This document shows, one piece after another, positions 8,038 to 53,981 of a stretch of 64,000 nucleotides of DNA. Location: the NCBI GenBank assembly GCA_001595785.1, contig LSSJ01000026.1, positions 1-64,000 on the forward strand, given 5' to 3'. The notes under the pieces are model-generated. The model was not told the origin of the DNA. It searched no databases and was given only the letters and a program-made list of their open reading frames with translations. The position numbers were made by a program, and so were the translations under genes. Source of the stretch: Euryarchaeota archaeon SM23-78 (GTDB taxonomy: Archaea; Nanobdellota; Nanobdellia; Woesearchaeales; SM23-78). The number at the start of each line of letters is the position of its first letter. Position 1 is the first letter of the stretch.

Positions 8038-9308
8038 TTGATAATACCAGCATTACCTTGTTTAGGAGTGCACACCCAAGAAGTCTTTCTTCCGAAGAGA
8101 TACTTATCTTTTAAAAATATTGCTCTGAATACAGCAATGGTGTTGCCAAATGCTAGGACCAGGCTTATTGAGAATGCAGCTAGTAAGAGCTTTGGAAATT
8201 CGTCTATGTTTTTGTGCTTCAAAAACATGGTTCCTGTTATTATCAGGAATCCTGCTGTAAATGAGAATTTTATAACTAACTCAAAGAAGTCAGCAAAATT
8301 GAAAAGCTCTGGTTCTCCAAGGAACCAACCAGTTAAACCTGCCAGAGTCATCAGGATTATTGCAGGAGAAATCAGGTTTCCCAGAGTTATATAGCTTATG
8401 GAAACCCTTTGCTTGAATTTCAGCCCTTTTTTATATAATATCTTCTTACCATTATCAATAAATGCTCTTAGGTTTCCAAAACACCATCTCATTTGTTGTT
8501 TCAAGAAGTCCTCTAATGTATAAGGGACTTCGCTTGGAGTCTCAAACTTTAAATAAACATTTCTGTAACCCTTGCTTAGAATCCTGATACTGAGATCTGT
8601 ATCTTCTGTGACACTGTTAGTATTCCAACCCCCAACCTCTTCTATTGCTTTCTTTCGAATAGCCCCTGCTGTTCCACAGAAGAACACAGTGTTAGCCTTA
8701 TTATAAATAGGCATAAGCATTTTGTGATGAACCATTAATAGGTAGGCTGCAAATCTTGATATTAAGTTAACATCCTTATTATAAAAGCCTTGTCTTGATT
8801 GCACAATACCTACTCTAGGATCTTCAAATGGTAAGACAATTCTTTTCAAGAAATCCTTGTGAGGCAGGAAGTCAGCATCAAAGATTACTATTATTTCTCC
8901 TTTTACATAAGGCATGGCGTGTTGGAGTGCGCCCGGCTTGTATCCTTGCCTGTTCTTTCTGTGAATGTATTTTATAAAACCAGGGTTCTTTGTTACAAAC
9001 CTTTTTAATAGCTTCTGGGTTTTTTTATCTGTGCTATCATCAACAAACATTATTTCATACTTGTTTTTGGGATAATCAAACTTCATACATTTTTCAATGC
9101 ACTTAACAGCAACAGGGTCATTAAAGCATGGTATCTGGACTGTAACAAAGGGATGCTTTTTTAGATTCTTTACTCTAAGATTCTTTTCTTTTCTAGGTCT
9201 ATCCACAAATATGTTTAAAATAGTTAAGATTAAGAACAATATGGAGAAGAAGACTACAGGCAGGAGAGCCAGGTTGTACAGGGCTAAGGATAATTCTTGT
9301 GCATTCAT
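8034..9308 (-). CDS. membrane glycosyltransferase family 2 (cellulose-synthase-like)
   Basis: Membrane helix at residues 10-34, then a GT-A domain with VQIPCFND, DDST (90-93), DAD (144-146), TED (234-236) and QQMRW (271-275), the full D,D,D,QxxRW signature of processive GT2 synthases. Three or more helices follow (about 300-400). It is upstream of, and overlaps by four bases, the second glycosyltransferase. The two are probably inner-membrane synthases for a surface polysaccharide or lipid-linked glycan. GDP-mannose dehydratase lies in the same neighbourhood, but no direct link is visible. Confidence 0.87.
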   Translation of the reverse strand: MNAQELSLALYNLALLPVVFFSILFLILTILNIFVDRPRKEKNLRVKNLKKHPFVTVQIPCFNDPVAVKCIEKCMKFDYPKNKYEIMFVDDSTDKKTQKLLKRFVTKNPGFIKYIHRKNRQGYKPGALQHAMPYVKGEIIVIFDADFLPHKDFLKRIVLPFEDPRVGIVQSRQGFYNKDVNLISRFAAYLLMVHHKMLMPIYNKANTVFFCGTAGAIRKKAIEEVGGWNTNSVTEDTDLSIRILSKGYRNVYLKFETPSEVPYTLEDFLKQQMRWCFGNLRAFIDNGKKILYKKGLKFKQRVSISYITLGNLISPAIILMTLAGLTGWFLGEPELFNFADFFELVIKFSFTAGFLIITGTMFLKHKNIDEFPKLLLAAFSISLVLAFGNTIAVFRAIFLKDKYLFGRKTSWVCTPKQGNAGIIK

Positions 9309-12530: not shown

Positions 12531-12767
12531 TTGATAAGGGTGCGTTCAAAATCTCACTTAGTTCGGGTTAGTGCCAGGCTCCGGCTCTATTCTTTTTTTG
12601 AGTAACCACCCTCCCCGTAGGGGGCACGTCCCCCTGGTGGTTGACAGATTGTACAGCAAATGATGCACAAAAATCCAAAGGATTTTTGGCACCACAAAAC
12701 CTAGTTTTGTGTGTGCCTCCGCAAATAAGGGCACTAATCTACATTTTGAACGCACCCGATTGATAAG
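12531..12767. mobile_element. MITE-like element with 15-bp terminal inverted repeats
   Basis: GGGTGCGTTCAAAAT (12538-12552) is perfectly inverted at 12743-12757. Direct repeats TTGATAAG occur at 12531-12538 and 12760-12767, as expected for a target duplication, although three extra bases sit at the right end. The inside is non-coding, about 190 bp, and contains the structured element described separately and two perfect hairpins. It fills the space between two divergent genes without disrupting either promoter. No transposase is visible. Confidence 0.5.
12565..12740 (+). ncRNA. structured RNA-like element, copy A
   Basis: An 11-bp closing helix (12565-12575 with 12730-12740, two G-U pairs) encloses a C/G-rich core, CCACCCTCCCCGTAGGGGG followed by a second AGGGGG...CCCCCT hairpin (about 12607-12643), and a short GCCTCCGCAAAT block before the closing strand. 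The core, the order of parts and the CGCAAAT block recur at 24995-25117 with a covarying closing helix. Copy A additionally carries two hairpins (12664-12711). Orientation is arbitrary, taken from the shared C-rich core. Class unknown. Confidence 0.5.
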
Positions 12768-16775: not shown

Positions 16776-17113
16776 TCCTTCTTCAACTTTAATATAGCCT
16801 CTGCAAGGTCTCCTTTACACTCTTCTATTGCTTTTTTAGCCTTTTCTTCAGAAGCCCCTGTCTGCTCCATCACAGTCTTAACATCATCCTCATTTATTTC
16901 AGGAGTTGAGTCAATCTCTCTAACACTCTCCTCTCCAATAACCTGATAAGTCTCCTGACCCATCATGTTAACCTTAGAAACACTTGGATTGGAAATAACA
17001 ATCTCTTTGTCCTCAAGCTTAATGATTACTTCCTTGGCATCTATCTCTTCCTGCCGTATACCCATTCTTTTCATGGCTTGTCTCATCTGCCTTGGATTCA
17101 TACCAGGAATCAT
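16772..17113 (-). CDS. nac: nascent polypeptide-associated complex protein (alpha-NAC)
   Basis: 113 residues: NAC domain (about 20-70, with VIISNPSVSKV-like strands and TYQVIGE) followed by a UBA domain (about 75-113, DVKTVMEQTGASEEKAKKAIE). Archaeal NAC is a homodimeric ribosome-associated chaperone. The start at 17113 (MIPGMNPRQM) follows GAGGTG; the upstream extension of the frame is not used. The gene lies next to Sec61-beta, a fitting pair at the ribosome exit and translocon. Its stop overlaps that of the convergent radical SAM gene. Confidence 0.93.
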   Translation of the reverse strand: MIPGMNPRQMRQAMKRMGIRQEEIDAKEVIIKLEDKEIVISNPSVSKVNMMGQETYQVIGEESVREIDSTPEINEDDVKTVMEQTGASEEKAKKAIEECKGDLAEAILKLKKD

Positions 17114-17184
17114 TATTTTGCACCTCGTGGAAAATAATGACTCAAAAATGTTTTTGACATTTTTGTTGTCATATAAACACCTCT

Positions 17185-17808: not shown

Positions 17809-18175
17809 GAGAGGTAGAGTAGCTATAAGCCGCCTTTTGTCAAACCCCTGGTCAGACCAGGATGGCTTGTGCTTAACATTCTACTTAGCGTCTCAAAGGA
17901 CTTGCACCGGTGAGGACTCGCCGTTTCACCCTTTCCTATGGGTTATTGGTCTGGTCGTTAGCTCGCAAATTGTTACCAAAATGCTTCGGAACCATCATTC
18001 CTATCCATAGGTGGTCTCGTTTCTGAGCCGTTGCCCTAGCTTTCGCCAGCTACCTTCCGATAGTCACCTGTCTAATGGTGGGCGGACTTTCCTAAGCAGA
18101 ACCAGCAAAAAAATGGTTTTGAAACCGTTGTTTTTGATGGGTTCTACCTGCTGTTAAGCCACTACCCTACCTCTG
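17809..18175 (-). ncRNA. rnpB: RNase P RNA
   Basis: Read on the minus strand, the conserved CR-I GGAAAGTCCGCC lies at 18081-18092 near the 5' end and CR-V AAGGCGGCTTATAG at 17823-17836 near the 3' end. The first and last segments (GAGGTAGGGTAGTGGCT and AGCTACTCTACCTC) pair to form P1. Length about 365 nt is normal for archaeal type A RNA. It is the catalytic RNA for tRNA 5' processing. It lies antisense between two paralogous pilin-like genes, filling a gap of about 550 bases that holds no coding sequence. Confidence 0.95.
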
Positions 18176-40834: not shown

Positions 40835-40971
40835 CACTGGACCAATCCTTTAGGAAAGCATTGATGGTGCTCAGAAACAAAGTTTCTGGCACCGCAAAAA
40901 TCATTAGTAAGATTTTTGCCGGAAAAGTGCGGGTACGTGTCTGAGAAGAACCCGCAATGGACGCACTGGAC
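40835..40971. repeat. hairpin cluster bounded by 8-bp direct repeats
   Basis: CACTGGAC occurs at 40835-40842 and 40964-40971. Between them are three hairpins: GGTGC-T-CAGAAAC/GTTTCTG-GCACC (40866-40893, one bulged T), GCAAAAATC/GATTTTTGC (40894-40919) and GCGGGT/ACCCGC (40929-40955). The first belongs to the bulged hairpin family found at 12664, 48873 and 48970. Together with the leader at 41013, this accounts for the gap of about 400 bases between the Kazal gene and the radA operon. Confidence 0.5.
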
Positions 40972-42484: not shown

Positions 42485-45400
42485 TTAAATACATCCGCTT
42501 GTGTCAAACTTACAATCATTACTACAATTCAAGATTCCACCTGCAAATCCTAGGCTTATACATGTTTGTCCGTTTAGATCTGGAAAGTCACACTCCTCTA
42601 ATGGATGATAAATTACTCCATCACCGCAACAAGCTGTGACCACACAAGTACCCCATTGGCAATCAGTGCATGTCTGAATACCAGGGTAACCATAGTTATC
42701 AGTGCAATCTCGAGTTGAACTTTCATTACACAAACAGGGCTCACAAGCTCCGTCTTTGCAGCCGTTTTGACAATAAATATCTTCACATGTAACATAATTA
42801 TTTTCACATAACAACTCTCCAACTGCACAGTCTGCTCCTGAACAAGAGTATATTGAACCTGTTGTAGATGTCCAGCATTGGTCTCCTGCATTAACAACAT
42901 GCTGGCCTACTCTATCCACTCCAGTTACATATCCTTTAACAAACTCGTTTCTTCCATCAGTATCAGTACACAGAGTATCATAGCACCCACTAAAGTCGAA
43001 TGTGCAGTCATTGTTGCAGGCCAGGATTCCTCCTATGTAGCTTCCAAAGTCTGAGCATATGCGCCCATCTAGGTTGTCTCCGTCGCATTGCTCCCCTGGC
43101 TCTACAATTCCATTGCCGCAGCAGTATACCACTGTGAAGTCCATTTTTTTTGACCATTGGGTTTTTTGTCCTATGTTGTTTGTTGCTCTTATCCACCAGC
43201 TGTATTCTTTTCCTGTTTCTAGGGCTTCATTTGTTTTGAGGGTATGTTCTGTGTTAGTGATTTCTGTGTTTCTGTAGATTGCTTGGCTTGGTGTTTCTTG
43301 GTGGCTTACCCATAGTTCATATTTTTCTGTTTCTGGTACTTTTTCCCATTTGAAGGTTGGTGTTGTTGTGTTTATTTCTCCTGTTGGTGATGTTAGCTTT
43401 GGTATTATTTTTGAAAAGTCTTTTATTGTGAAGTCCATTTTTTTTGACCATTGGGTTTTTTGTCCTATGTTGTTTGTTGCTCTTATCCACCAGCTGTATT
43501 CTTTTCCTGTTTCTAGGGCTTCATCAGGATTTGGGTAATATTCTGTGTTAGTGATTTCTGTGTTTCTGTAGATTGCTTGGCTTGGTGTTTCTTTGTAGCT
43601 CACCCATAGATCATATTTCACTGCTTCTGGTACTCTTTCCCATTTATAAACCGGGATTATTATTGTATATATTTCTCCTGATGGTGATGTTAATTTTGGG
43701 ATTATTTTAGAAAAACTCTTTACTGTGAAGTCCATTTTTTTTGACCATTGGGTTTTTTCTCCTTTGTTATTTATTCCCCGCACCCACCAACTATATGTTT
43801 TATCTGGTATAAGGCTTGTTGGACTGCCGGTTTCATCCAGCCATATTGGTGCATACTCTGTGCCAAATACCTCTGTATTTCTAATTATTGCTTGACTTGG
43901 AGTTTCCTGATAGCTTACCCAAATTTCGTATTTTTCTGCTTTTGGTACTGCTTCCCATTTAAAAGTTGGCTTTGCTGTATATGTATCTCCTAATGGTGAA
44001 ATTAAAACAGGTCCTTGAGGTATAGGATCAGTGTCTATTTCATAACTTCCGTGCTCATTGCTTTCTCTGTAAATACCGTTTGAAGGTATGGGAATTGGAT
44101 TACCATTCCAAGTTTTTAACTCTACTTCACCTTCACTGGTGATAAAGAGATAAGGAATATAAAATAAAACTTTAGCGGCTGGTCCTGAAATAGCCGGGTC
44201 ATCATCGTAAATCTCTAGTAAAGTTCTATATGCAGACCGTGATCCAGAATGCTTGGAATAATAAGCATGTTGGATAAAAGGAGGAGTTAATATCTCGGAA
44301 TTGTACCCAGGAGCAATTTCTATCATACAATCTATGCCTAACATATGCATTGGATAAATTCCCTCTCCTTCATAACTCAAAGGATTATAGTTATACATAA
44401 TATACTTATAATTATCAGGATTATTTTGCCAATTAATATCTGAATAAATTCCATTATCTATTCGGCCATCTACTACATATCTTTTTTCTGCTTTAAGACG
44501 ATAAAAATAAGGATCAAGAGTCCCGGACCTACTGCCTAAACCCGAAAGCGCGAGTTCATAATTATTGCTTAAGTCAGAAATACAGATACCTTCTAATGAC
44601 TTTGATTGTTTCAGTTCCCCTATTACGCCTATCAACCAGCCAATATTTTTGTGACTTATTAGAAAATTTTCTTGTATTAAATCCATTGGCTGAGAAATCT
44701 CATCAAGAGCATCTATTCTAATATAATTTTCTGCATCAGTTAAACTTATTGATATATTTATTAATCCATTAATATTTAAATCTTCTTTCACAATAATGCA
44801 TGTGTCTGCTCGGCCTTCGCAATAAGTTGGTGGAGGAGAGGTTCGCATTGGCAAAGACAAAATATCATAAATTCCAGATGAAGGCAATAGTATTTCTACT
44901 CCATCATATAAAAAATATCGATTCAAGGTCAAAAACCAATCTTCTCTATTATGAACAATCAGACCTTCAGGTTTATGGTCTGTAAAAAATAACTTTATTA
45001 TAGAAGGTGGCTCATAAAAAATGAGAGGTATCTTAAAAATAGTTTCTCCTATCTTTGTTGGTTCAAAAATCAAAATATTGTTTAAGTATCTACTATAATC
45101 CCAAGTATCAGTATTTATTTCTAGAGTAATGGTTAATTCTTCCTCAGAATTAGGAGATAATGAAATTGAATTTTTGTTAAATAATACTCTAACATAATCA
45201 TAACTCTTTTCTGTGCCCAAAGTATAAAATTTAAATTTTTTTCCAAAATTTTTAATTTTTATAGTCAAACTTTTATTTACAAATCCCTGGTCAGGCGTAA
45301 TAGAACCAAAAGACAAAGACTCTGGAGATATAAGTGTATCACTATTTATGGCCTTAAAAACATCAACTCTACCCTTGCCCGCACTGTATATTGATTTATT

Positions 45401-46864
45401 AATATCAATAGCATTAAGCATAAAAGCATACTTAATCTCATTAGAATTCCAATCAGGATGTTTTTGAACCATTAATGCAGCAGCTCCAGCAATGTGAGGT
45501 GTTGCCATTGAAGTGCCGCTTGCTAAAATATGTTTGTCATCTAGACATTTATCAAGCATAGGCGGGGCATTTACTCCTTTTGCAGAACAGATACTAACCC
45601 CAGGGGCAACAATATCTGGTTTTAGAATTATCCCATCCTTCCAAGCAACAGGGCCACGTGAACTAAAAACTGCCAGCCCATTATTTTTATCAGATGCGCC
45701 AACTGTTATTACTTTTCTGGCTGTTCCTGGGGAAAGAATAGTTTGTTCTCCAGGGCCTGAATTGCCTGCAGCAACAACCACAACAACACCATTATCAACT
45801 GCATTATCAGCAGCTTGACTCGCAGGGTCATCAGGATCCCCTGCTCCTCCTAAACTCATGCTTATCACATCAACATGATCTGAAAAATCTCCATCTTGAT
45901 TAGGGTCAACAGCCATTTCTATTCCTGCAATAACACCAGCCATAGTTCCAGATCCATCGTTATCTAAAACCTTATATCCATAAAGCTCCGCATCTGGAGC
46001 AACGCCCTTTAGGGCACCGTTGCCAGCAGCAATGCCTGCACAATGGGTTCCGTGACCAGCATCGTCCATTGGGTCATTATCATTATTTATGATATCATAA
46101 CCATCAACAACTTTACAGCCACTGCCCAAACACCCTCCTAAATCAGGATGAGTATAATCGATTCCCGTGTCTATAATAGCAATTGTTATGCCTTTTCCTG
46201 TTAAGCATTCTTTCCCTGTTATTTCACAATTATTTCCATCAACATCTAATAACCAAACATCATCAGCATTAATTAAAGGCACAGAATCCATTAAAGTTGC
46301 TTTAACTTTGTAGTTGGGATGAATGTCTTTAACATAGTCTAATCCTCTGATTTTCGCAAGGTCATTGTCTGAGGCGCTATCTACTGATATACCATTAAAA
46401 GTATTTTCAAATTTTCTTTTTATAATTACTTTTGGGGCTTTTATTTGTATGTCTCTTTCTGCAGAAGAATGAAGATTTGAGAGTTTTTGTTTATGAGATT
46501 CTAATTGAGATGAAAATTCACTAATACCTATTCTGCCGGATTTGAATTCTTGCTTCAGCTGGTGGTTTTTCTTTAATATTGGATCATCTTTAAATTCAAT
46601 AATATAACCTTCATAATCAGCAGTTTCAGAGGTAATTCCAGATCTTTGTTCTTGCTCTCGAAGTTTTGTGTAAGTTAATTGAGAATCTTGTAATATTTCT
46701 TGTGAATCTGTGTAACTTTGCGTTGCTGCTTCACCTGCAAGGTTAGCCGAATCCAAAGCAATTTTCTGAGGCGCACTGCTAATTATCAAAATAATTGCAA
46801 CTATAGCTACAATGGCTACAATTGCTACCATTACAAAGCTATAATCTTTTTTCTCTTCAGCCAA
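42485..46864 (-). CDS. membrane-anchored subtilisin-like (S8) protease with FN3-like repeats
   Basis: 1459 residues. KKDYSFVMVAIVAIVAIVAI anchor (about 5-29), I9-like propeptide (about 85-190), complete S8 domain with IIDTGIDYTHPDL (Asp232), GHGTHCAG (His271), AAGNSGP and GTSMATPHIAG (Ser452). A beta-rich middle of about 450 residues follows, then three fibronectin III-like repeats of about 98 residues (roughly 955-1245), two of them nearly identical in DNA, and a Cys-rich C terminus of CGNG-ExCD modules. Likely a surface endoprotease; substrates unknown. It is convergent with radA. Confidence 0.93.
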   Translation of the reverse strand: MAEEKKDYSFVMVAIVAIVAIVAIILIISSAPQKIALDSANLAGEAATQSYTDSQEILQDSQLTYTKLREQEQRSGITSETADYEGYIIEFKDDPILKKNHQLKQEFKSGRIGISEFSSQLESHKQKLSNLHSSAERDIQIKAPKVIIKRKFENTFNGISVDSASDNDLAKIRGLDYVKDIHPNYKVKATLMDSVPLINADDVWLLDVDGNNCEITGKECLTGKGITIAIIDTGIDYTHPDLGGCLGSGCKVVDGYDIINNDNDPMDDAGHGTHCAGIAAGNGALKGVAPDAELYGYKVLDNDGSGTMAGVIAGIEMAVDPNQDGDFSDHVDVISMSLGGAGDPDDPASQAADNAVDNGVVVVVAAGNSGPGEQTILSPGTARKVITVGASDKNNGLAVFSSRGPVAWKDGIILKPDIVAPGVSICSAKGVNAPPMLDKCLDDKHILASGTSMATPHIAGAAALMVQKHPDWNSNEIKYAFMLNAIDINKSIYSAGKGRVDVFKAINSDTLISPESLSFGSITPDQGFVNKSLTIKIKNFGKKFKFYTLGTEKSYDYVRVLFNKNSISLSPNSEEELTITLEINTDTWDYSRYLNNILIFEPTKIGETIFKIPLIFYEPPSIIKLFFTDHKPEGLIVHNREDWFLTLNRYFLYDGVEILLPSSGIYDILSLPMRTSPPPTYCEGRADTCIIVKEDLNINGLINISISLTDAENYIRIDALDEISQPMDLIQENFLISHKNIGWLIGVIGELKQSKSLEGICISDLSNNYELALSGLGSRSGTLDPYFYRLKAEKRYVVDGRIDNGIYSDINWQNNPDNYKYIMYNYNPLSYEGEGIYPMHMLGIDCMIEIAPGYNSEILTPPFIQHAYYSKHSGSRSAYRTLLEIYDDDPAISGPAAKVLFYIPYLFITSEGEVELKTWNGNPIPIPSNGIYRESNEHGSYEIDTDPIPQGPVLISPLGDTYTAKPTFKWEAVPKAEKYEIWVSYQETPSQAIIRNTEVFGTEYAPIWLDETGSPTSLIPDKTYSWWVRGINNKGEKTQWSKKMDFTVKSFSKIIPKLTSPSGEIYTIIIPVYKWERVPEAVKYDLWVSYKETPSQAIYRNTEITNTEYYPNPDEALETGKEYSWWIRATNNIGQKTQWSKKMDFTIKDFSKIIPKLTSPTGEINTTTPTFKWEKVPETEKYELWVSHQETPSQAIYRNTEITNTEHTLKTNEALETGKEYSWWIRATNNIGQKTQWSKKMDFTVVYCCGNGIVEPGEQCDGDNLDGRICSDFGSYIGGILACNNDCTFDFSGCYDTLCTDTDGRNEFVKGYVTGVDRVGQHVVNAGDQCWTSTTGSIYSCSGADCAVGELLCENNYVTCEDIYCQNGCKDGACEPCLCNESSTRDCTDNYGYPGIQTCTDCQWGTCVVTACCGDGVIYHPLEECDFPDLNGQTCISLGFAGGILNCSNDCKFDTSGCI

Positions 46865-48243: not shown

Positions 48244-48843
48244 ATGGTTGAAGCAGAACAATTGCTCATACCCAACGACGAGTATCTGAAGTCAGGAATA
48301 CATATTGGTACGAAATTTAAAACAAAGTATATGGAGAATTTTATCTATAAAACCAGACCTGATGGTCTTAGTGTGCTTAATGTGCAGCAGATAGATGCAA
48401 GGATTAAAGTGCTTATTAGCTTTCTCTCCAAATTTGCTCCTGAGGAAATAATGGTGGTTGCTAGGAGAGAGAATGGCTGGAAACCAGTACAGCTGTTTGG
48501 AGAGCTAACAGGAGCAAAAACATACATCGGAAGGTATCCTCCCGGAATACTTACCAATACTCAGCTGAAAAAGTTTACAGAGGCAAAAGTAATCCTTGTA
48601 ACAGATCCTTGGCCTGACAGGAATGCTGTTGAGGATGCTATGAGAATGGGCATACCAGTGATTGCTTTTTGTGATACTAATAACCAGGCTAACAGCATAG
48701 ACTTAGTAGTGCCTTGCAATAATAAGGGAAAGAAGAGTCTTGGCTTAATCTTCTGGTTATTAACCAAGGGCTACATGGAAAACAGAGGAATGATTACCAA
48801 GGGAGGATTTACATATAGCCTTGATGATTTTTCTGAAGAATGA
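48244..48843 (+). CDS. rpsB: 30S ribosomal protein uS2
   Basis: 199 residues, archaeal S2 without the bacterial coiled coil: IHIGTKFKTKYMENFIYKTRPDGLSVLNV at the start, then IGRYPPGILTN and PVIAFCDTNNQANSIDLVVPCNNKG, all conserved in the family. It sits at the 30S head-body junction. A strong AAGGAGG precedes the ATG. The eight-hairpin array starts 14 bases after its stop. Confidence 0.97.
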   Translation: MVEAEQLLIPNDEYLKSGIHIGTKFKTKYMENFIYKTRPDGLSVLNVQQIDARIKVLISFLSKFAPEEIMVVARRENGWKPVQLFGELTGAKTYIGRYPPGILTNTQLKKFTEAKVILVTDPWPDRNAVEDAMRMGIPVIAFCDTNNQANSIDLVVPCNNKGKKSLGLIFWLLTKGYMENRGMITKGGFTYSLDDFSEE

Positions 48844-48856
48844 ATTTTTTTATTTT

Positions 48857-49036
48857 CTTAATCTTTGATTAAGTGCTCAAAAGTTTACTTTTGGCATACA
48901 AAAATCTTTGATTTTTGAATACAGAAAACCCGTAAGGTTTTCTGTAACTCAAAGGCTTTGCCTTTGTTGTGCTCAAAGGTTTATCTTTGGCACCCAAAGA
49001 CCCTGTCTTTGATGATTCAAAAATTTTTAATTTTTG
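48857..49036. repeat. array of eight perfect hairpins between convergent genes
   Basis: Hairpins, all with fully paired stems and 3-6 base loops: 48857-48873, 48878-48893, 48899-48917, 48922-48944, 48950-48966, 48974-48989, 48995-49011 and 49018-49036. Stem sequences differ (CAAAAG, CAAAAATC, CAGAAAACC, CAAAGGC, CAAAG, CAAAGAC, CAAAAATT), but seven of eight begin CAAA or CAGA and end TTTG or TCTG. Linkers are 4-7 bases. The last hairpin abuts the radB stop codon. It could end transcription in both directions. Confidence 0.75.
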
Positions 49037-49708
49037 TTATTTCACTTCTTTAATCCCCTCGTCAACAATTCTAAACATTACTTTTTTTCCTTCTTCTATG
49101 CTTCTATGCTTTCTAATAACTGCTATCCTATTAGCACCGCTCTTTTCCAGCTCTACCAAGGTTTTGCTGATGTTGGTGATTATTCTTCCCCCTACAATCC
49201 TTACTCCTTCTTTTTTCTCAATATCAGCATACACCTGGGCTGTCATGATTACTGGTATGTCTTTTTTTCTTGCAATCTCAAGCAAGGTTCTTACCTGTGA
49301 TGCTAGTGAATTGTTCAAGCCATAATTATCTTCTTCTCCTAGCTCTGCCCTGTAAAGCATGGTTATAGAGTTAACAAAGATTATGCCAATATCCTTTTTG
49401 ATAAGGCTCTTTAGTTTTTCAATAGCAACTTTCTGCTCTTTAAAATTGGTTGGTTTTAAGAAAATGATTTTTTCAAGAACCTTTTTATAATCAGAGCACA
49501 TCTGCCTAAACCTAGTGATAGAAAAGCTTGCTTCTGTATCAACATAGATTACTTTCTGGCCTTTAACACTATTAGCAATGCATAAAAGGCAAAGATTAGT
49601 TTTTCCACTCCCAGCAGGTCCATAGATAGTGGTAATAATGCCTTTATCATACCCTCCTTCTAAGAGCCAGTCCATCACAGCTGTGCCCGTGCTAAGTTTG
49701 GTTTCCAT
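49037..49708 (-). CDS. radB: DNA repair protein RadB
   Basis: 223 residues, a RecA-core protein without N-terminal helix-hairpin-helix: Walker A GPAGSGKT (30-37), KVIYVDTEASF, Walker B IIFVNSITML and GGRIITNISKTLVELEK. RadB is the archaeal RadA paralogue that aids recombination and Holliday-junction work. It is followed in the same direction by two uncharacterised genes upstream of it on the chromosome (49742 and 50159). Confidence 0.93.
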   Translation of the reverse strand: METKLSTGTAVMDWLLEGGYDKGIITTIYGPAGSGKTNLCLLCIANSVKGQKVIYVDTEASFSITRFRQMCSDYKKVLEKIIFLKPTNFKEQKVAIEKLKSLIKKDIGIIFVNSITMLYRAELGEEDNYGLNNSLASQVRTLLEIARKKDIPVIMTAQVYADIEKKEGVRIVGGRIITNISKTLVELEKSGANRIAVIRKHRSIEEGKKVMFRIVDEGIKEVK

Positions 49709-50644: not shown

Positions 50645-50710
50645 AGCACATAAACTTACTTTTGAAGGTATTTAAATATTGCTATTTGTTGTATCAAAAG
50701 ATTTATACAA

Positions 50711-50756
50711 CAGAAGCAAAGCTTCTGAGCATAAATGTTTTTAACAAAACATTTAT
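50711..50756. repeat. two perfect hairpins
   Basis: CAGAAGC/GCTTCTG with AAA loop (50711-50727) and an 11-bp ATAAATGTTTT/AAAACATTTAT (50731-50756) overlapping the TATA box of the small gene at 50784. Same style as the arrays at 48049, 48857 and 40866. Confidence 0.55.
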
Positions 50757-51380: not shown

Positions 51381-53981
51381 TCATTCTTCAATCACTTCAG
51401 CACTTTCCTCATCATCCCCATTAGCCTCTATCTTTGCAACACTAACCACCTTGTCGCCCGGGTCTAGTTTCATAATCCTTACTCCTTGGGTATTCCTGCC
51501 TATAACGCTTATATTTATTACAGGCACTCTTATCAGGATGCCTTTCTTAGAAACTACCATTATCTCATCTTCATCTTTAACTGCTCTTATGCACACTACC
51601 TTACCGTTCCTTGGACTGCATATAATGTTCCTTACCCCTTTTCCTCCTCTGCTTATAAGCCTGTACTCTTCCATCATGGTTCTTTTGCCATAACCGTTCT
51701 CTGTGATTGTGAGCACAGTCTCATCGTCTCTTGCTATTATCATTCCTATAACCTTATCATCCTTGCCTAGCCTTATACCTCTCACTCCAAAGCTGCCTCT
51801 ACCTATGGGTCTTGCATCTGCTTCAAAGAACTTGACTGCTTGTCCATTACTACTTGCCACAAGGATTTTTTGATGCCCATCTGTAAGAACCACTTCTATT
51901 ACTTCATCTCCTGGATTAAGATTAATAGCTATTATTCCTCCTTTTCTTGGCCTGCTATAAGCGCTTAGCTTGGTCTTTTTTACCAAGCCATTCTTGGTTG
52001 CAAATAAGAGATAATGTTTATCATCGAATTCTCTTATTGGAATGACTGTTTCTATCTCTTCATCAGGCTCTGTTCTTATCAGATTAACTATGGGTTTTCC
52101 TTTGCTTACTCTGGCTGCTTCTGGTATTTTATAAACCTTTAACCAGTACACCTTTCCTTTATCAGTGAATACTAAGAGATATGAATGGGTATTAGCCACA
52201 AATAAGTGTTGGATAAAATCTTCTTCCTTGGTTGTTGCTCCGATAACTCCTTTTCCTCCTCTTCTCTGAGTCTTGTACACATCTATGGGTTGCCTCTTAA
52301 TGTATCCTACATGGCTTAGAGTAATCACGTTCTCCTCTGGCTTTATCAAGTCCTCAACATCTATCTCTTCCTCCTCAATTTCTTCTATCATGGTTCTTCT
52401 GTCATCACCATACTTGTCTATGATTTCCTTCATCTCATCCTTTATTATGCCTAGTATCTTGGCCTCATCAGCAAGTATCTCTTTTAGTTTTTTGATGAGC
52501 TCTAGTAACTGCTTATGCTCATCTCTTATTTTTTGTTGCTCAAGACTGGTTAGTCTTTGCAGCCTCATATCCAGGATTGCTTGGCTCTGCTTGTCAGTGA
52601 GCTTGTAAACAGCTATAAGGTTCTTCTTTGCAATAATAGGGTTCTTTGAGGTCTTTATGAGTTTGATAACAGGGTCAAGATGCTCTAATGCTATAAGCAA
52701 TCCTTTTAGAATGTGCGCTCTTTCCTCTGCTTTTCTTAAGTCAAACTTGGTTCTTTTCCTTACAACAATTCTTCTGTAGGTTAGAAAGCTTTCTAGCAGT
52801 TGCTTGATGTTAAGGGTTTTGGGTTGGCCATTATCAAGACCTAGCATTATTGCTCCAAAGGTTGATTGCAGCCTTGTATGCTTGTATAACTGGTTCTTTA
52901 CAATCTCAAGATTGGCTGATTTTCTTAGCTCTAGCACTATGCGCATGCCTTTTCTATCACTCTCATCTCTTATATCTGAGATGCCTTGTATTGTTCTGTC
53001 ATTAACACAATCAGCTATCTGCTCTATTAGTTGTGATTTGTTAATCTGATAAGGTATTTCAGTTATGACTAGAATCTGCTTACCCTTTTTCTCCTCGACA
53101 CCTAACTTTCCTCTTACTCTAATAATTCCTCTGCCTGACCTATAAGTATCTATTATTCCTTGTTTTCCAAGGATTATGCCTCCTGTTGGAAAATCAGGTC
53201 CTTGTATGATTTCTACTATATCTTTTATTTCTATGTCTGGTTTAGCTATGAGTTCAATAACTGCTTGGCACACTTCTTTGATGTTATGAGGGGGTATATT
53301 GGTTGCCATTCCAACAGCTATTCCACTGCTGCCATTAATCAATAGATTTGGTATCTTGCTTGGCAGTACAATTGGTTCTTTTAGGCTGCCGTCAAAGTTT
53401 TCTTGGAAAGCAACGGTTTCCTTGTCAATATCCACGAGTATCTCATCGCTTATCTTGGCCAGCTTTGCCTCTGTGTAACGCATGGCTGCTGGGTTGTCTC
53501 CGTCTATGCTTCCAAAGTTGCCTTGCCCCATTATCAATGGATATCTTAGTGAGAAGTTTTGGGCCATTCTTACCAGAGCATCATAAACAGCCATGTCTCC
53601 GTGCGGATGATACTTTCCCAGCACTTCTCCTACGATTCTAGCACACTTTCTAAAAGGAGTATTATACTTTAAGCCCATATCATTCATTGCGTATAGAATT
53701 CTTCTATGAACAGGTTTTAAGCCATCCCTGATATCAGGAAGAGCCCTGCCTATGATTACACTCATAGCATAATCTAGATAAGATGCTTTCATCTCATCCT
53801 CTATTATGGCTCTGATTATCCTTTTCTCAGTTACTGGCACTCCTAGTTTCTCAGCTACTTTTTCCTGTTCGGTTTCGGAGGAACCCTCAGAAATCTTTGA
53901 TTTCTGTTGTTTCTCTGACTCTTTTGGTTCGCTTTTTTCCTTTGTTTTCTTACTTGAGTCCTTAGTCTTTTTTTTGGTCAT
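51381..53981 (-). CDS. gyrA: DNA gyrase subunit A
   Basis: 866 residues: Lys/Ser/Glu-rich extension (1-55), then the type IIA topoisomerase breakage-reunion domain with [31 protein letters not shown] and catalytic AAMRYTE (Tyr169), coiled coil (about 400-480), and a C-terminal beta-pinwheel with the GyrA-box QRRGGKG that distinguishes gyrase from topo IV. It would introduce negative supercoils with GyrB, which is not in this window. Bacterial origin of archaeal gyrase is established knowledge. A TTTATAAAG TATA precedes it near 54035. Confidence 0.96.

Follow-up and report, generated by a model that had tools for sequence, protein, structure and literature searches.

Why are eight short hairpins packed into the 180 nt between two convergent genes? 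The array lies at positions 48857-49036 of the window, i.e., the whole 64,000-nucleotide stretch analysed here, which is part of contig C26 in a draft archaeal genome of 1.48 Mb. Its left flank is rpsB, an ORF for archaeal uS2 (48244-48843, + strand) with orthologs in 38 of 39 relatives, and its right flank is the ORF of a radB-like recombinase in the opposite orientation (49037-49708, - strand), which has orthologs in all six congeners. An earlier note on this DNA offered two kinds of answer, a multi-step bidirectional terminator and a hairpin-generating or transposition-like process, and it is the latter that fits the results below. In our view, the array is probably one copy, into which a second module has merged, of a palindromic element that occurs dispersed in Woesearchaeota-like archaea, consists of several hairpins and is non-autonomous. 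This reading is based on copies at unrelated places, orthologous sites free of the element, in-frame copies in genes, a nested insertion and paired changes in the hairpin arms.

In order of position, and read on the - strand throughout, the array opens with hp4 (48857-48873; CTTAATC AAA GATTAAG, 7 bp, loop 3), a hairpin shared with the orthologous site of genome G005. The adjoining hp3-type hairpin (48874-48896; TGC[CAAAAG TAAA CTTTTG]A GCA) is matched by a sequence pattern and by a covariance model (CM; match 48874-48920, 47.2 bits); its core (48878-48893) has 6 bp and a loop of 4, and beyond a one-base bulge the stem is lengthened by TGC/GCA. Then come CAAAAATC AAA GATTTTTG (48899-48917; 8 bp, loop 3), TACAGAAAACC TTACG GGTTTTCTGTA (48920-48946; 11 bp, loop 5), which is a composite module (AGTTA...) also found in L002, L003 and G005 L074, and CAAAGGC AAA GCCTTTG (48950-48966; 7 bp, loop 3). 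The sixth hairpin is hp3 (48969-48993; GTGC[CAAAG ATAAAC CTTTG]A GCAC), again recovered by both pattern and CM, and it is followed by hp2 (48995-49011; CAAAGAC AGG GTCTTTG, 7 bp, loop 3), the two being spanned by a CM match of 67.2 bits (48970-49017). The last hairpin, hp1 (49018-49036; CAAAAATT AAA AATTTTTG, 8 bp, loop 3), abuts the radB stop and is also present in G005. The claim that all stems pair fully thus holds for seven hairpins, while the sixth pairs nearly so, its core (48974-48989) consisting of 5 bp plus one G.T on the + strand, or A.C on the - strand. The linkers measure 2-7 nt, not 4-7 bases as had been given.

The hairpin run itself is real. Seven hairpins with stems of at least 6 bp were counted in the array, against a mean of 0.66 and a maximum of 4 when these 180 nt were Markov-shuffled 2000 times, so that runs of this kind are absent from shuffled sequence; for stems of at least 7 bp, one 180-nt stretch held six, as compared with at most three in ten shuffled windows. 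RNA folding of the array gave z = -9.4 for the - strand and -9.0 for the + strand, and none of 200 shuffles was equally stable. When the window was searched against Rfam at the gathering score, the array matched no known RNA family, the only match being RNaseP_arch at 17815-18169.

Comparison of copies revealed a canonical unit, which reads hp1-AATCAA-hp2-AGTGC-hp3-AGCA-hp4 on the - strand of the window and has the stems CAAAAnnnTTTTG (hp1), CAAAGGC AAA GCCTTTG (hp2), CAAAGG TAAA CCTTTG (hp3) and CTTnnn CAAAG nnnAAG (hp4). The window array comprises hp1-hp2-hp3 and then a second composite module (AGTTACAGAAA...) that ends in hp3-hp4. The view that structure rather than sequence is conserved was half right: only the inner pairs vary, with pairing kept, and sequence conservation extends over both the linkers and the stem ends (GTGCCAAA...TTTGAGCA).

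The unit is dispersed. A BLAST search with the array as query found 18 further places in its genome, the best of them 84-86% identical over ~100 nt, and the pattern TGCCAAAN{6,14}TTTGAGCA had 21 matches in this genome, none in the reversed control, and matches in five of six congeners. CM copies numbered at least 36 in the window genome, 40 in G005 and 36 in G003; none was detected by the covariance model in G001. Further copies in the window are a two-hairpin CM match at 12664-12716 (- strand), an hp2-GGTGC-hp3-AGCA copy at 40868-40919 (- strand) and a weaker two-hairpin copy, including a CM match, at 50705-50756 (+ strand). The earlier note had proposed to count such arrays genome-wide, and in sampled stretches they were common: 12 with three or more adjacent hairpins in 239 kb of the window genome and 10 in 105 kb of G005, against none in shuffles of either, although these figures are not unbiased densities, as some stretches were picked for holding matches and a few of the arrays lack the element linkers. 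Neither of the two outcomes that the note would have taken as refuting, comparable runs in shuffled sequence or absence elsewhere in the genome, was obtained. Moreover, a 48-nt two-hairpin module is inserted exactly within other copies in the window genome (TAGGA^48 nt^ACCGCTTG), three copies having the site filled and three others having it empty. We also noticed another repeat, TAAGGGGTTCCGG...CTAGGAACCGCTTGCC; it has a sharp left boundary, occurs in eight copies (L030, L031, L032, L033, L035, L041, L026 and L058) with matches also at two contig ends, and is represented in G005 by a compensated variant, GACTCCGG..CTAGGAGTC.

The element is not restricted to spacers. Among the sense copies found within ORFs in the sampled stretches, 11 of 13 share one reading frame, K(A/S/T)..L(S/G/D)AK...LS, and encode peptides such as SSKAEPLSAKGKPLS. 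Nine of these 11 lie in Pfam-matched proteins (prefoldin, SRP54-type GTPase, tRNA endonuclease, GrpE, AAA ATPase and FKBP), although the FKBP copy may be an untranslated leader instead of an in-frame insert; of the remaining two, one, an altered copy, lies in an Elp3-like radical SAM protein and the other in an ORF that has no family assignment. For instance, the prefoldin insert amounts to ~26 residues in the N-terminal tail and is missing from five congeners, and GrpE carries two tandem 87-nt in-frame copies in G005 (L134 782-952) and none in the window genome. RNA genes are also affected. The tRNA-Gly(CCC) gene of G003 (L136 10505-10724, + strand), detected by ARAGORN only with introns allowed, has a predicted 148-nt intron at position 38 that consists largely of hairpin elements, whereas its counterpart in G006 is intronless. 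We also observed two tRNA 3'-end remnants with hairpin elements in the T-loop, L065 in G002, which adjoins an intact tRNA-Pro, and L131 8821-8995 in G005; these T-loop insertions hint at a preference for hairpin loops.

Other copies lie in the leaders of genes. In several of them the last hairpin presents a Shine-Dalgarno sequence in its loop, and its 3' arm includes or adjoins the start codon (L123 12229, + strand; L130 ~8395-8420, - strand; L169 1564, + strand; L052; L120; L174; and ~17100-17165 of the window), and often there are further hairpins and a short ORF upstream. The leader arrays are preceded by an earlier ATG, and the codons past it often resemble those past the real start. Duplicated start codons around leader copies were equalled in 73 of 5000 permutations, a weak test, and it is only suggestive that the target was duplicated. 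Some copies upstream of genes are ~96% identical by eye between G000 and G006, above the flanking DNA, and such conservation could reflect function.

How do the arms of the hairpins change? In 17 seed copies, we counted 33 double changes and no change on a single side. The CM alignment (148 matches, 129 distinct) showed covariation at 16 of 16 modelled pairs; 251 cells carry a change in both arms and standard pairs make up 98.9% of cells, a result reached in none of 500 shuffles. Because the CM was trained on well-paired seeds, and hence undercounts mispairs, we also used pattern matches, in which the inner bases are unconstrained: in 39 distinct copies, 75 of 78 inner positions pair, as compared with 46.8 (maximum 58) upon permutation. 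Covariation by itself is no proof of a functional RNA. Nevertheless, such strong covariation is what would be seen if the hairpins were a structured RNA family selected as RNA, e.g., as regulators in 5' leaders or as processing or RNA-protein sites, and this alternative gains from the Shine-Dalgarno hairpins described above, from one leader array being highly conserved between G000 and G006, and from the sense orientation of the Pfam-supported copies in ORFs. If selection acted on the RNA strand, G.U should exceed A.C; the mispairs were 10 A.C and 6 G.T, and thus no transcribed strand appeared to be favoured. Copies of the element are, moreover, found in convergent, divergent and codirectional spacers, ORFs and a tRNA intron, and their presence differs among congeners. 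We therefore consider an RNA family unlikely. The data lean towards maintenance of pairing at the DNA level, which is not a proof, as the counts are small and matches fall on both strands of some arrays.

The array might also be the product of purely local hairpin-generating mutation, with no movement between loci. This would agree with arms remaining complementary as the sequence changes, and with the rpsB/radB site of G005, where a shorter array has the first and last hairpins of the window array and a different middle. On the other hand, such a process would hardly give rise to exact nested insertions, or to long and nearly identical composites that recur at unrelated loci both within one species and in different species, and we hold a purely local origin to be distinctly unlikely. 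For instance, 48846-48969 of the window (- strand) shares 90% identity across 124 nt with G005 L074, which is another locus, whereas syntenic genes of the two genomes are mostly 70-78% identical, suggesting that this stretch moved or was exchanged recently.

The genes surrounding the window array are syntenic in G005, G006 and G003, and the same site in congeners bears on the terminator proposed earlier. In G006, rpsB and radB are syntenic and nearly abut, with no hairpin between them; hairpins were likewise lacking between the convergent rpsB and radB of G001 and of G003, and in G004 none followed rpsB. The convergent position of the genes and the good folding of both strands would suit a multi-step bidirectional intrinsic terminator of rpsB and radB, but four congeners dispense with hairpins here, the same elements occur within ORFs, in a tRNA intron and before starts, and on the rpsB side the hairpins are preceded by a T-rich stretch past the rpsB stop (48844-48856, + strand), itself a plausible candidate for an ordinary archaeal terminator as judged from the sequence. 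We thus discarded termination as the primary role, and the explanation as a whole is very improbable. Two other ORFs of the window are mentioned for their own sake. One of 866 aa (51381-53981, - strand) reads as a putative DNA gyrase subunit A, notable in an archaeon; the other, of 1459 aa (42485-46864, - strand), combines a transmembrane segment at its N-terminus with repeats and a subtilisin-like protease region, and is likely a secreted protease.

All genomes compared in this study are draft assemblies. The CM matched 65 of 144 relatives at E <= 0.01, with one to at least 40 copies each, and 45 of 279 genomes of the phylum at E <= 1e-4; of these 45, 43 belong to the window genome's own order, counting its genus, and the other two to its class. 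The element is nearly confined to one archaeal order. Consistently, the two-hairpin pattern was found in Woesearchaeota-type genomes of a species-level genome collection, the four bacterial matches being put down to chance as they lack the hairpin pair; carriage by viruses was set aside, as the pattern had no match in a viral contig collection.

The search for a parent transposon, such as a MITE would have, covered PF01797 (Y1 transposase) and PF00078 (reverse transcriptase). The absence of both from several copy-rich genomes is evidence against our reading of the array as a dispersed element. PF00078 was not found in G000 and other copy-rich genomes and is present in the copy-poor G002; as it does not follow copy number, we rejected reverse transcriptase as the mobiliser. 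Direct repeats flanking the copies exceed the permuted expectation (2 of 5000), an excess confounded by local composition or low complexity and by tandem duplication, and no clean case of target-site duplication was seen among the copy flanks. That the copies are REP/BIME elements mobilised by a RAYT or another Y1 transposase is barely credible, even though they are short palindromes, dispersed, and have one base left unpaired close to the foot of the stem, as PF01797 does not follow copy number, being undetected in the copy-rich G003, G046, G103, G113 and G037, only partially matched in the window genome and interrupted by a stop in G005. A CRISPR array was rejected, since the stems differ, the linkers are 2-7 nt long and there are no near-identical repeats with unique spacers; on both counts, i.e., that the array resembles neither ordinary REP arrays nor CRISPR, the earlier note was correct.

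The dispersed element has several parallels among known systems. Rickettsia palindromic elements (RPE) are dispersed in spacers, in-frame in conserved proteins and also within RNA genes (PMC2229807). The archaeal element is likewise a dispersed, multicopy palindromic repeat that occurs in-frame in conserved protein genes whose orthologs lack the insert, as well as in an RNA gene (the tRNA-Gly of G003), and Wolbachia palindromic elements show the same likeness, being dispersed in spacers and in-frame in conserved genes. Nevertheless, an RPE is a single stem-loop of 105-146 bp with terminal inverted repeats, the arm identity of which is reported to be lost over time (PMC6649704), whereas the archaeal element is a string of several short hairpins with conserved linkers and arms that stay complementary; by its build it is therefore not an RPE. 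In the mitochondrial DNA of Nematomorpha, perfect inverted repeats in coding genes are gained and lost between species, with arm conversion or template switching as the proposed cause (PMC6649704), but these palindromes reach 284 bp, their arms encode the gene's own conserved sequence, and they share no dispersed element. Mitochondrial repetitive or double-hairpin elements of sponges (repetitive hairpin elements, RHE; PMC2800124), fungi and algae form hairpin clusters that spread in spacers and are scattered among taxa; they are similar in build, but are organellar and have no common sequence shown. REP/BIME with RAYTs are likewise short dispersed hairpins; the archaeal element differs in having no Y1 transposase that tracks it, in occurring in ORFs and in stem interiors that vary in pairs. 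The literature we searched contained nothing relevant on hairpin or palindromic elements of DPANN archaea or Woesearchaeota. For coding palindromes, there is reportedly one archaeal precedent, to go by its title. The best reading of these comparisons would be an element that behaves like RPE, built of several hairpins with co-evolving arms.

If the window array is a copy of such an element, its spread would have depended on a trans-acting or host process. What keeps the hairpins perfect may be a DNA-level process during replication, either template switching or conversion between the arms, and not selection on one transcribed RNA; PMC7202029 and PMC8604942 present template switching between imperfect arms as an established route to identical arms. 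In the rpsB/radB spacer, the element would either have arrived as such or have grown out of a shorter array shared with G005, and any effect on termination there would be secondary. It is possible, albeit rather doubtful, that we are dealing with a class of archaeal mobile hairpin elements tolerated wherever they land: a safe ORF would protect genes, splicing would protect tRNAs, the element's own ribosome-binding hairpin would recreate the start codon at gene starts, and each arm would serve to repair its partner, a change on one side being carried over to the other side.

Rickettsia and Wolbachia are both known to have coding palindromic elements. To our knowledge, the mechanism by which they spread is unsolved. 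The large family found in the small genomes of these DPANN archaea, which can reach dozens of copies in a single genome and includes sites that are occupied in one congener and vacant in another as well as hundreds of paired arm changes, is a natural data set that bears on how such elements move and on whether their arms are kept alike by template switching in DNA or by selection on RNA.
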